Origin: Synergistaceae bacterium
Lineage (GTDB): Bacteria > Synergistota > Synergistia > Synergistales > Aminobacteriaceae
Reading direction: 5' to 3'
Length of the DNA: 50,140 nucleotides
Assembly: GCA_012521675.1 (NCBI GenBank)
Contig: JAAYLU010000025.1
Location: forward strand, 1 to 50,140
The position numbers and the translations under genes were made by a program. This document shows positions 4,677 through 15,798 of this stretch, piece after piece. Under the pieces are notes generated by a model that saw only the letters and a list, made by a program, of their open reading frames with translations, was not told the origin of the DNA and ran no database searches. Every line of letters starts with the position of its first letter. The stretch's first letter is position 1.

Positions 4677-5486
4677 CTATTCTTCGGGCTCATTGTCAAT
4701 GCAGACATAGCCAAGGACGGCGTTTTCCCAGATACAGGCCAAGCAACGGTCCTCGTTTCGAGCGGCGGGGAGGTTCTTTGACCTGACTTGCCTCACGGAC
4801 CTCCTCCTGCATTTCAGATCCGTGATGAACGCCTGTCCGATCGAGGCCAGCCAGGCCATTCGATCCGCGTTTTTTATATCTTCCGTGACCTCCTGGATTA
4901 AAAAAACCGCGGGATCGATCCTGGAAAACAGGAATTGCCTGCCGCCATGCTGGATCAGAAACTCGCCGGAGAGGCGTTTTTTCTTGGACAGCTTAGGCAG
5001 TGCGATGTCTTCAAAAAGCTCCTCCGCGGCGTGATTATAAAGGACCGAGCCCTCGTCGCAGAGGACGATCGGGAGGGGAACGGTCCACCAGGCGGGCAAT
5101 TGAAGGGCAGGTGTCTCTTCAAGCATCGCTTTAGCCTCGACGCTCTTTTTCGGCTCGTCGGGTATCGCCTCGGCCGGTACCACCTCGACACCTTGCTTCG
5201 TGACCAGAAGAACGGGGGTGAGCGGCCCCATTGACTTGCTGATAGTCCCCGGCGGAAGTTGCCCCGACGAGAGCCTCTTCATCGCCTCCGCCACTTTTGT
5301 GTCGGCGTGCCCCCTCTCCATGAAGGAGACTATCTGTTCTTTGGAGAATATGGCGCTTTTGTCAGCCCCCGAGATCACGCAGTGTTCCACTCCGTGAAGA
5401 AACAGGGATCGAAGAAGCGACGAAAGAGGGGAATCGACCGTGGTGTCATTGGTGTAACCAGTCCTGTCCATCTCAGGCATTTTCAA
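4677..5486 (-). CDS. Conserved-looking protein of unknown function downstream of ftsY
   Basis: I do not recognise this 269-residue protein. It is soluble, with no signal peptide. Residues 1-100 look helical. The stretch around 134-160 (PLPIVLCDEGSVLYNHAAEELFEDI) resembles the first strands and helix of a PAS-like sensor fold, a weak resemblance only. The C-terminal 45 residues are basic and contain a CLAC pair and two further cysteines. The ATG overlaps the ftsY stop by four bases (ATGA), so its translation is probably coupled to FtsY. Codon use matches the neighbours. Confidence 0.6.
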   Translation of the reverse strand: MKMPEMDRTGYTNDTTVDSPLSSLLRSLFLHGVEHCVISGADKSAIFSKEQIVSFMERGHADTKVAEAMKRLSSGQLPPGTISKSMGPLTPVLLVTKQGVEVVPAEAIPDEPKKSVEAKAMLEETPALQLPAWWTVPLPIVLCDEGSVLYNHAAEELFEDIALPKLSKKKRLSGEFLIQHGGRQFLFSRIDPAVFLIQEVTEDIKNADRMAWLASIGQAFITDLKCRRRSVRQVRSKNLPAARNEDRCLACIWENAVLGYVCIDNEPEE

Positions 5487-11621: not shown

Positions 11622-12723
11622 TCAGCTCTGTCTCTTCCATCTCAGGTAATTCATGATAAAGTCGTCGATATCTCCATCTAGGACAGCCTGCACGTTTCCC
11701 GTCTCGAAGCCGGTCCTGTGATCCTTGACGATCATGTAAGGGTGCAGAACGTAGGAACGTATCTGGCTTCCCCAGCTGATCTCCTTCTTCTCCCCCTGCA
11801 TGGCGGCAAGCTCTTCCTTCCTCTCCTGAAGCGCCTTCTCGTACAGGCGGCTTCTCAGGACCTTCATCGCCATCTGACGGTTCATGTGCTGGGATCGTTC
11901 GTTCTGGCAGCCCACGACCGTCCCCGTGGGAATATGGGTGATCCTCACAGCCGAGTCGGTCCTGTTGACGTACTGACCTCCCGCCCCGCTCGCCCGGAAA
12001 GTGTCGATCCTGAGATCCTCCGGGCGTATCTCCACCGATACGTCGTCGTCGAGCTCGGGGGCCACGTCGACTGATGCGAAGCTCGTATGCCGACGTCTCG
12101 CCGCGTCGAAGGGGGAGATCCTGACCAGTCGATGCACTCCCTTTTCTCCTTTCAGGTATCCGAATGCGTATTCCCCCTGTATCAGCATAGTGGCGTTCTT
12201 GATCCCCGCCTCCTCGTCCTGGAGAAGCTCGAGGACCCGTCCTGAAAAGCCCTCTCGTTCAGCCCATCTCAGGTAGAGGCGAAGAAGGGTCTCCGCCCAG
12301 TCCTGGGAGTCAAGCCCCCCGGAGCCGGCATGAATCGTCAGGATGGCGTTGCACTCATCATGCTCCTCCGACAGGAGCAGCCTCATCTGTTCCCTCTCCG
12401 CGTACTTGCGAAGCATGTCCGCGGTGGCGTCGAACTCTCTCTGCAGCTCCACGTCCTCGTCCTCCGCCAAAAGCTCCTCGAGGGCGGACAGATCGCCGAA
12501 CAGCCTGTCCACCTCGCTCCAGCTGTCCAAATTCCTCTGGATTCGGGCGATCTCCCTCGAGACCTCCTTGCTTTCCGCCTTCTTCCAAAACTCCGGATCC
12601 GCGGACTGCGCCTCCAATTTCTCTTTTCGAGCGGTTATCGTATCGAGGTCAAAGACTGTCCTGAAGATTTTGCCTTAAAATCCGCAGTTCCTCCAAAATA
12701 GTAACGTTAGGTGCCAGCGCCAT
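11622..12723 (-). CDS. prfB: Peptide chain release factor 2, with programmed +1 frameshift
   Basis: RF2 releases the chain at UGA and UAA. The main frame (from a TTG at 12617) lacks the normal N-terminus, but the missing part is present one frame off. An ATG at 12723, behind AGGAGGA, encodes 24 residues MALAPNVTILEELRILRQNL through SL. It then meets CTT TGA C (12654-12648), the classic RF2 slippery site, with a CAGGAC element just upstream. Shifting +1 gives DLDTITARKEKLEAQSADPEFW and an intact 366-residue RF2. Seen further on are the GGQ loop (SGAGGQYVNRTDSAVR) and the SPF codon-reading tripeptide (RISPFDAARRR). The UGA makes synthesis depend on RF2 supply (established autoregulation). Confidence 0.96.
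12648..12662 (-). promoter_or_regulatory. RF2 programmed frameshift site
   Basis: On the minus strand the order is CAGGAC, AGT, CTT, TGA, C. CTT (12654-12652) is the slippery codon and TGA (12651-12649) the in-frame stop; slipping by one base resumes at GAC (12650-12648). This is the standard prfB arrangement. Confidence 0.93.
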
Positions 12724-12752
12724 CTCTACATCCTCCTCGAGTGCAAGTCGTC

Positions 12753-12781
12753 TTGCTTTGCATGGCGTTTAATTATATCAT
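12753..12781 (+). promoter_or_regulatory. candidate birA promoter
   Basis: TTGCTT (12753-12758) and TATCAT (12776-12781) are 17 bases apart, followed about 35 bases later by the TTG start of birA. No clear inverted repeat resembling a BirA operator was recognised here, so autoregulation is possible but unsupported. Confidence 0.45.
12772..12777 (-). promoter_or_regulatory. candidate prfB promoter -10 box
   Basis: A perfect TATAAT on the minus strand would start transcription around 12765, giving a leader of about 42 bases to the prfB ATG. No convincing -35 is visible. It overlaps the divergent birA promoter in a 92-base intergenic region. Confidence 0.4.
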
Positions 12782-12815
12782 TTCGAAGCTGTTCAGACCG
12801 AGGAGGCAGGGCGAA

Positions 12816-13811
12816 TTGAAAAAATCAGACCCGATTGCAGCGGCGATCGGCAGGGTTTTATCCGGCGCAAAAGAAGGACGTAGATCCCTCCGTTCCCTGT
12901 CGGAGGCCCTTTCCATCTCCGATCAGGACGTCTGCGAGGGCCTTGAAACCCTGTCCGAACAGGGATTCGACATCCGAAAAACACCGGAGGGCATTGAACT
13001 TCACTCCCCGCCAGAGTACGACCTGGCGCCATCCTACGTCGCCTCTCTCTTGCCCGAAGACGTGTTTGGCGATGCGATCATTCACACCTACGACACTCTC
13101 CCCTCCACGCAGGACACTGCAAAGGAGCTGGGACGAAATGGAAATCGCCTCGTCGTCGTCTTTGCGGAGGAACAGACAAAGGGCAAGGGCCGACGGGGCA
13201 GGAGGTGGCTGTCCTGCAGGGGATGCGGTCTGTTTTTCTCCGTCTTATTCAAACCGCCCCTTCCCGCGTGCAAGCTGCAACTGGTAAACCTCGCGGCGGC
13301 GCTTGCCGTGAAGGACGCGGTATCCGCGCTTTACTCCGTCGAACTCTCGGTCAAGTGGCCCAACGATCTGCTGTACAAGGGCGGAAAGGTCTGCGGCATC
13401 TTATCCGAGGCTTCCATCGGGGCCCGGGATATTTTAGACTGCCGGACGGGAATCGGGATAAACATAGTGCCTCCCGATCCGGTGGCCGACGAGGGTGCGG
13501 TCCTCTTCAACGCAAACCACATCGGGGAGGCAGCGAACGCTCCGGTTCATCGCGGGAGGCTCGCGGCGGAGATACTTGCCCGCTACTTCCGCCTGCTGGA
13601 CCAGGCGGCTTCCGACGGCGGACAGACCCTCCTGTACAGCTACAGGGCCTCCTGTTCGACCCTGGGGAGGGATGTATCCGTCATCACGGACGAGGGAACG
13701 GTGACGGGAAAGGCCGTCGGCATAGGCGAGGATGGAGAGCTGCTCCTCGAGACGGAGGGGGGGGAGATGGCCTTCAACGCGGTCGATGTCGTCCATGCAA
13801 CCCCAAGTTAG
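12816..13811 (+). CDS. birA: Biotin--protein ligase / biotin operon repressor BirA
   Basis: Joins biotin to the carrier protein of biotin enzymes such as acetyl-CoA carboxylase. The 331-residue product starts with a winged-helix domain (about 1-60: LRSLSEALSISDQDVCEGLETLSEQGFDI), so it may also act as a repressor. The ligase domain follows: THDTLPST-like YDTLPSTQDTAKELG, GKGRRGRRW (biotinyl-AMP loop), then VKWPNDLLYKGGKVCGIL, and a C-terminal SH3-like domain. The open frame reaches back to 12711. A TTG at 12816 behind AGGAGG (12801-12806) gives the normal domain start, and an ATG at 12762 is less likely. SelD follows after 50 bases on the same strand. Confidence 0.92.
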   Translation: MKKSDPIAAAIGRVLSGAKEGRRSLRSLSEALSISDQDVCEGLETLSEQGFDIRKTPEGIELHSPPEYDLAPSYVASLLPEDVFGDAIIHTYDTLPSTQDTAKELGRNGNRLVVVFAEEQTKGKGRRGRRWLSCRGCGLFFSVLFKPPLPACKLQLVNLAAALAVKDAVSALYSVELSVKWPNDLLYKGGKVCGILSEASIGARDILDCRTGIGINIVPPDPVADEGAVLFNANHIGEAANAPVHRGRLAAEILARYFRLLDQAASDGGQTLLYSYRASCSTLGRDVSVITDEGTVTGKAVGIGEDGELLLETEGGEMAFNAVDVVHATPS

Positions 13812-13861
13812 AGCACTATATGGTATAATAATGTCTATTATAACCAAAAGGAGTAATGGAG

Positions 13862-14908
13862 ATGCGCCTGATTGATATGTCGACATCGAGCGGCTGAGCT
13901 GCCAAGATAGGTCCGTCGGACCTGTCCAGGATATTGAAAAACATTCCTCTTCCGTCCGATGGACGCATCATCACCTCCTGGTCCTCCGGGGAGGACGCGG
14001 CCCTTTTCCACATCGGAGGCGACAGGCTGGGAATTCTGACCGTAGATTTCATAACCCCCGTCGCGGACGACCCGAGGACCTGGGGTATGATAGCGGCGGC
14101 CAACTCCCTAAGCGACGTATTCGCTATGGGTGGCCTGCCCCTTGTGGCGCTGAACATAGTCGGCTTTCCCGTGAAGACCCTCTCTCTGGAAATCCTGGAG
14201 GCGGTGCTGTCGGGAGGCCTCGAAAAAGTGCGCGAGGCGGGCGCATTTCTGGTAGGTGGGCATAGTGTCGAGGACAGCGAGCCGAAGTACGGGCTTGCCG
14301 TGTTCGGGGAGGTAGCCGAGGACTCGGTGTGGAAGATCGACGGTGCTCGCGCCGGAGATCTCCTGGTGCTGACCAAGCCGATCGGAACAGGCATCGCGAC
14401 GACCGCCCTGAAGGCCCATATGGTCGAGGACGAGAGGACCGTCCAGGAGGCGATCGGATGGATGTCCACCCTCAACGATCTTCCGCTGAAACTCGACAGG
14501 GAGCTTCTATCCCGCGTGAACGCCTGCACTGATGTGACGGGGTTCGGCCTTGCGGGGCACGCACTCGACATGCTGTCGGCAGGAGGACTCAAGCTGCTTC
14601 TGAGCTTGAAGGACGTGCCCCTGATAACGGGGGTCCTGGAGCTTGCCGCATCGGGGCTTGTCCCCGCCGGAACCTACAACAACCGCGCGGAGTTCGAGAA
14701 GAGGGTGGCGGATCCAAAAGGCCACGACGAACTGCTGGTCGAGAGCCTTTTCGACGCTCAGACCTCGGGCGGAATGATGCTGGCCATACCGGAAGACGGG
14801 GCTGACGCCTTTCTGTCCGCACTTTCATCGATCGGCTTCGAGCGCTCGGCCGTCATAGGTCGATTTGTGCCAGGGGACGGCGGAATCGAGATAGTCTCCG
14901 GTCTCTGA
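13862..14908 (+). CDS. selD: Selenide, water dikinase SelD, itself a selenoprotein (UGA = Sec)
   Basis: Makes selenophosphate from selenide and ATP. The conventional open frame begins at a TTG at 13934 and lacks the catalytic N-terminus. In the same frame upstream, an ATG at 13862 (AAGGAG at 13848-13853, 8-base spacing) encodes MRLIDMSTSSG, then TGA (13895-13897), then AAKIGPSDLSRIL. The UGA falls exactly at the catalytic Cys/Sec position, with Lys three residues later (Sec12, Lys15, matching Cys17/Lys20 of E. coli). A SECIS-like hairpin follows. Full length is 348 residues. Further motifs: GEDAALFHIGGDRLGILTVDFI, DVFAMGG, GGHSVEDSEPKYGLAV and TDVTGFGLAGHA. A TATAAT at 13824-13829 may be its own -10. 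No other sel genes are in the window. Confidence 0.95.
13895..13923 (+). promoter_or_regulatory. bacterial SECIS-like element of selD
   Basis: Eleven bases after the UGA, AGGTCC (13909-13914) pairs perfectly with GGACCT (13918-13923) around the loop GTC. The loop begins 17 bases after the UGA and its first base is G. Both fit the described bacterial SECIS pattern (apical loop 16-37 bases downstream, G at one of its first two positions). SelB would bind here to insert Sec. Confidence 0.85.
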
Positions 14909-14937
14909 CAGGGACATCCCGGCCCCGGGTTCTGTCA
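14906..14937. terminator. hairpin between convergent selD and the SBP-like gene
   Basis: TGACAG (14906-14911) pairs with CTGTCA (14932-14937), with an inner CCCG/CGGG stem. The hairpin includes both stop codons. There is no T-run on either side, so its strength as a terminator is uncertain. Confidence 0.4.
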
Positions 14938-15798
14938 CTGCTTATTGCCCTGCTTGATCCCCTCGGGCGGCCTGAAGGCCGAGACCTTGTTCCAAAGCAG
15001 GATGTACTGGCCGTGGAAGAAGAGCAGCATGTCCTGGTCCAGCGCGGGGCGCTCGAGGAAGAGGATGTCCTTGTTGTTTTTCAACGACTCTCTTACCTTT
15101 TTCAAAGGCGGGACATCCGCGACGACGAGAATTTTATTCCTTCGCGAATCTTCGAGGAGCGATGCCAGCCTGTCCAAACCTTCGCCGCGCGACCAGGAAA
15201 GCTCCACCTCCTCGTTCACGGGAATCATCGAGCAGCCCGCCGCGGTCAGCATCCTCGAGTAGCTGCCCCCGAGGTAGATCAGCGACAGTCCGCCGAGAAG
15301 CCGCCTTCCTACGATCACGGTGCTGTCGAGGCGCGTCTGGAACTCGGACAGCCTGCGCTGGTAATAGGAGTAGTTCTCCGGGTCGAACTGGGACAGCACG
15401 GTGAACACCCTCTGCGCTATGAAGGGAAGAGCCGAGGGATCGGTAAAGAAAAGATCCGCCTCCTCTTTGTCGAAAGGGGCCTTTTTATAGAGGAATACGA
15501 GGTCGTCCCATTCCTTCTCGTTAAAGCCCAACCGAGAGGCCTCGGCGACGTCGAGGGCTATAAGACGCGCCTCCCTCGAGATCTTGTTCGCCTTGACCTT
15601 GCACACCGGCTCCCCGTCGTCATTCCAGTCTTCGACGGGATGCACCGTGACGAAGACACCGCCGATGAACCTCGTCACCAGCGCCAGCCAGGGCGAGGTC
15701 GTCCACACATCCCAGGCGTGGGCGATGCCGGCGTGAAAAATGACGAGCAGGAAAATAGGGAGCGAGAAGCGAAGAAACCTGTTTCTCACCTGTCTCAA
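14935..15798 (-). CDS. Exported protein resembling a zinc/manganese ABC transporter binding protein, ligands apparently lost
   Basis: The 287-residue product has a signal peptide (about 1-28, ending GIAHA). Its body follows the TroA/ZnuA order: SPWLALVTRFIGGVFVTVHPVEDW near the mature start, then FFTDPSALPFIAQRVFTVLSQFDPENYSYYQRRLSEF, which parallels the HVWLDP..A..L..LDPENA..Y segment of zinc-binding proteins. The metal-binding His of HVWLDP is replaced (TFFTDP-like), and the early PHxYxP loop is missing. No permease or ATPase gene is adjacent; its 3-prime neighbour is convergent selD, and its start overlaps the rnc stop by four bases. A metal-scavenging role is doubtful. The family call rests on recalled patterns. 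Confidence 0.5.
   Translation of the reverse strand: MRQVRNRFLRFSLPIFLLVIFHAGIAHAWDVWTTSPWLALVTRFIGGVFVTVHPVEDWNDDGEPVCKVKANKISREARLIALDVAEASRLGFNEKEWDDLVFLYKKAPFDKEEADLFFTDPSALPFIAQRVFTVLSQFDPENYSYYQRRLSEFQTRLDSTVIVGRRLLGGLSLIYLGGSYSRMLTAAGCSMIPVNEEVELSWSRGEGLDRLASLLEDSRRNKILVVADVPPLKKVRESLKNNKDILFLERPALDQDMLLFFHGQYILLWNKVSAFRPPEGIKQGNKQ

Follow-up and report, generated by a model that had tools for sequence, protein, structure and literature searches.

Selenophosphate synthetase (SelD) that itself contains selenocysteine (Sec) is already well known. By published accounts, only one prokaryotic selenoprotein family is more widespread than Sec-containing SelD, and the enzymes of Aquifex aeolicus (PDB 2yye), Geobacter, Desulfovibrio, Campylobacter and Clostridioides difficile belong to the same enzyme family as the SelD described here. 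The Cys-containing SelDs of Escherichia coli, of PDB entry 3u0o and of Brevibacillus (our loci L067 and L070) likewise share with it the family and the catalytic Lys. Synergistetes have been published as a selenoprotein-rich phylum, with 13 of 14 organisms using Sec. In the model of the bacterial SECIS element (bSECIS), 16 to 37 nt separate the UGA from the hairpin loop, and a G is found among the first two loop positions (PMC13188914).

The gene under study lies in a window of 50,140 nucleotides, the whole stretch of Synergistaceae DNA that we analyzed. It is selD, encoding selenide, water dikinase (selenophosphate synthetase), at 13862-14908 on the plus strand, and its product has PDB matches to 2yye and 3u0o. 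With an internal TGA read as U, the product is 348 aa long with Sec as residue 12, the stop codon is at 14906-14908, and the protein scores 326.1 bits against TIGR00476 (cut-off 125), with residues 2-312 covering positions 1-309 of the 311 in the profile. A mechanical ORF listing, by contrast, gives selD as 13934-14908, starting at TTG 13934. Upstream of this TTG, the frame passes a single TGA and then ATGs at 13877, 13862 and 13856. Continuing 5′, the first stop reached in this frame is a TAA at 13841. The ATG at 13862 is 8 nt downstream of a GGAG (13850-13853, plus strand) that is a probable ribosome-binding site as judged from the sequence, which confirmed the proposal in the preliminary description that the frame continues through one TGA to a well-spaced ATG. 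Its prediction that automatic annotation would begin at the TTG held for the mechanical ORF list, but annotation software that takes selenoproteins into account may perform better. The wrong selD start assigned by a naive ORF caller is thereby corrected.

Directly upstream of selD is birA, encoding biotin-protein ligase (12711-13811, plus strand; TIGR00121, 165 bits). Downstream of and convergent with selD, a minus-strand ORF at 14935-15798 encodes a 287-aa protein with a signal-peptide-like N-terminal segment, for which a Pfam search at 0.001 returned no match. Also in the neighborhood is prfB, the gene for release factor 2 (11622-12723, minus strand), which carries a classical programmed +1 frameshift: the zero frame, MALAPNVTILEELRILRQNLQDSL, stops at the TGA within CTTTGAC (12654), and the +1 frame goes on as DLDTITARKEKLEAQ. 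The naive start of the prfB ORF is TTG 12617. Some 1.2 kb separates the recoded UGAs of prfB and selD, which lie on opposite strands.

Structure alignment and phylum-wide conservation identify the in-frame TGA of selD (13895-13897, plus strand) as the codon of the catalytic residue, very probably read as Sec. In alignments with solved structures, the Sec of SSGUAAK falls on the Cys of SSGCAAK in 2yye and on that of GAGCGCK in 3u0o. The sequence around the aligned Cys is SSGCAAKVGPGDL in the Aquifex enzyme and GAGCGCKISP in the E. coli-type SelD 3u0o. The native Aquifex residue is Sec, replaced by Cys for crystallization, and in the E. coli enzyme Cys17 and Lys20 are required for activity. A Lys codon (AAG) is the third codon past the selD TGA, so the pairing of a catalytic Cys or Sec with a Lys three residues on is present, and the suggestion that the TGA stands in place of the catalytic Cys was borne out by both alignments. 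As is required of a selenoprotein gene, the homologues have either a conserved UGA or Cys at the same position.

The apical stem-loop of a bacterial SECIS, AGGTCC-GTC-GGACCT, occupies 13909-13923 on the plus strand and is supported by RNAfold, synonymous-site fixation and conservation of its pairs. Inspection of the sequence and RNAfold agreed with the initial observation of a perfect 6-bp stem that begins 11 nt past the TGA and encloses the loop GTC, and RNAfold lengthened the stem to 9 bp, including one G-U. The loop starts 17 nt past the UGA with G first, within the bSECIS limits. Nevertheless, when the same 15 residues were synonymously recoded, a stem of 6 bp or more and a G early in the loop arose in 1.6% of 200,000 trials (P ~0.016), and a comparable stem follows 26 of the 1275 TGAs that the window has on its two strands. 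Because chance yields such stems in 1.6-2% of cases, the hairpin alone is unconvincing, and we rejected it as stand-alone proof. Searching both strands of the window for further frames that can be read through a TGA and carry a hairpin gave nine matches; none has an obvious selenoprotein context, and they look like background.

We evaluated conservation of the TGA and the hairpin across Synergistota. The alignment of SelD from this phylum, which had been proposed as a check, was run: a scan of genome contigs yielded 41 Synergistota selD loci (L017-L057), and every one of them has TGA at the Sec codon in the context G-U-AAK. The locus of a cultured relative, Fretibacterium fastidiosum (L027), shares both this TGA and the hairpin. 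In a broader phylum search covering 81 genomes, selD was detected in 61; each of the 62 matches is interrupted by exactly one stop codon, a TGA. No Cys-form SelD was found among these 62 copies, and at the threshold applied SelD was not matched in the remaining 20 of the 81 genomes. Synonymous sites were examined in an alignment of 39 Synergistota selD sequences with 68 conserved four-fold degenerate codons. The codons Gly17 (GGT) and Pro18 (CCG), both in the 5′ arm of the hairpin, each have the same third base in 38 of 39 sequences (97%) and rank first and second of the 68, across which the most common third base has a mean frequency of 0.42. The neighboring Ile16 codon is ATA in 32 of 37 sequences. 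Stem pairs are kept in 93% of cells (38 sequences), versus at most 57% when the pairing is slid. Only three compensatory changes were detected, all at alignment pair 18-26, and the near-invariance of the element within Synergistota leaves little room for covariation. As support for the SECIS, synonymous-site fixation weighs more than covariation; decisive for the Sec reading are synonymous-site conservation, pairing and the invariant TGA.

We next turn to the genome of the host, a 2.21-Mb draft of 121 contigs (97.6% complete) in which the window is contig C25 and which we searched by family. As the preliminary description had anticipated, selA (C24:4991-6337; 533 bits) and the adjoining selB (348 bits, with neighbors in frame) were both detected, and their frames are uninterrupted; of the machinery anticipated there, only tRNA-Sec was not found in the assembly. 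The genome also has further TGA-containing selenoprotein genes, including the glycine reductase genes that had been suggested: grdA (C16:12302-12742) has one in-frame TGA, grdB (C16:12793 onward) has an in-frame TGA in TST-U-GTCTRCG, and fdhA (C65:42904-44949) has one in CARV-U-HAPTV. Predicted folds past the TGAs of grdB and fdhA have clear 7-bp stems with 3-nt loops, and the structure past that of grdA is weaker. With selD, grdA, grdB and fdhA, the genome has at least four predicted selenoprotein genes, and evidence of Sec use in that many genes is what the analysis contributes for this organism.

A search of the host assembly with RF01852 found no tRNA-Sec; 150 of 331 first-look candidates were scored, and the best match, at 44 bits, is a Leu tRNA. 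According to ARAGORN, all 17 RF01852 matches in the genome are ordinary tRNAs (Leu, Ser, Tyr, Lys, Arg and others) and none is Sec. BLAST of the assembly with tRNA-Sec from the same genus, which was added to this search, found none, nor was one found beside selAB on C24. Among relatives, 18 of 20 have tRNA-Sec; the four members of the same genus are all among these 18. In three of the four (G001-G003; L111, L114 and L117), an LmeA-like gene stands before it and pcm after it, both named by eye from their translations. In the host, contig C33 ends within the LmeA-like gene (match at 4766-5002 of 5004), and pcm (C31:1944-2570) is preceded by an MCP-like gene truncated where C31 starts. Since the region is interrupted by these contig ends, the expected tRNA-Sec interval is unassembled, and we infer that the missing tRNA-Sec reflects an assembly gap. 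The same-genus relatives do not have the MCP-like gene in this interval, and it is perhaps an insertion that caused the assembly break.

Judging from sequence comparison, we are nearly certain that the gene is selD for a selenophosphate synthetase that itself contains Sec, with UGA codon 12 predicted to be decoded via SelB and the stem-loop. Sec would be inserted at this codon by tRNA-Sec, which is probably present in the cell and would be brought by SelB upon recognition of the downstream stem-loop. Sec12 and the Lys that follows would then make selenophosphate from selenide and ATP, and through SelA the selenophosphate would furnish Sec for SelD itself, GrdA, GrdB and FdhA. If the UGA were instead an ordinary stop, a SelD without its active-site segment would start at TTG 13934, or the gene would be decaying. 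The existence of the mechanical ORF and the absence of tRNA-Sec from the assembly are in keeping with this, but on either side of the TGA the codons are conserved as protein phylum-wide and extend the match to the SelD profile, the genome has selA and selB, and a TGA in 62 of 62 phylum copies is incompatible with decay, making an ordinary stop extremely improbable.

We assign next to no probability to a changed genetic code or a suppressor tRNA that has UGA read as Trp or Cys. Nothing specific speaks for it, apart from the tRNA-Sec that is unseen in the draft, whereas the genome encodes release factor 2, whose gene has a UGA frameshift signal of its own, and both selD and grdB terminate at TGA; therefore, UGA is a stop elsewhere in the genome. 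Against Trp or Cys also stand selA and selB and the in-frame TGAs in the known selenoprotein families grdA, grdB and fdhA. Loss of the Sec machinery in this lineage, with tRNA-Sec truly deleted and nonfunctional remnants left, would fit the blank results of both RF01852 and same-genus BLAST in an assembly of such completeness. However, the tRNA-Sec interval falls in the gap between C33 and C31 and is simply unassembled, the frames of selA and selB are uninterrupted, and the four selenoprotein genes are intact save for their single TGAs, so that we find such a loss scarcely credible.

Sec decoding of selD, the reading that we favor, places the host gene squarely within the published picture, to which the apparent fixation of Sec in SelD across Synergistota is a small addition. 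We tentatively suggest, at somewhat less than even confidence, that Sec-SelD is fixed in the phylum, that the supply of SelD is self-locked to Sec decoding, and that selenium use is lost outright with no Sec-to-Cys step. Outside the phylum, Arcobacter loci L071 and L072 have TGT at the Sec position, placing Cys in a Sec-type context (GCAAK), and L071 keeps GGTCC-GGG-GGATC past the TGT, apparently the remnant of a SECIS from before Sec was changed to Cys. Relic SECIS elements following such a change have been described for other genomes (PMC1794560).

The hairpin of the host resembles the bSECIS consensus in its position just past the UGA, its small loop and the G that comes first, and its 3-nt loop is as small as the published range of 3-9 nt allows. 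The loop is GUC in the host and GGC in most Synergistota relatives. Whereas the Cys-SelDs of E. coli and Brevibacillus (L067 and L070) have a Cys codon (GCGCK) and no need of UGA decoding, the known Sec-SelDs and the host SelD alike have the context SSG-U-AAK-GP-DL (with Cys in the crystallized Aquifex chain) and a stem-loop directly downstream, and between them we see no functional difference.
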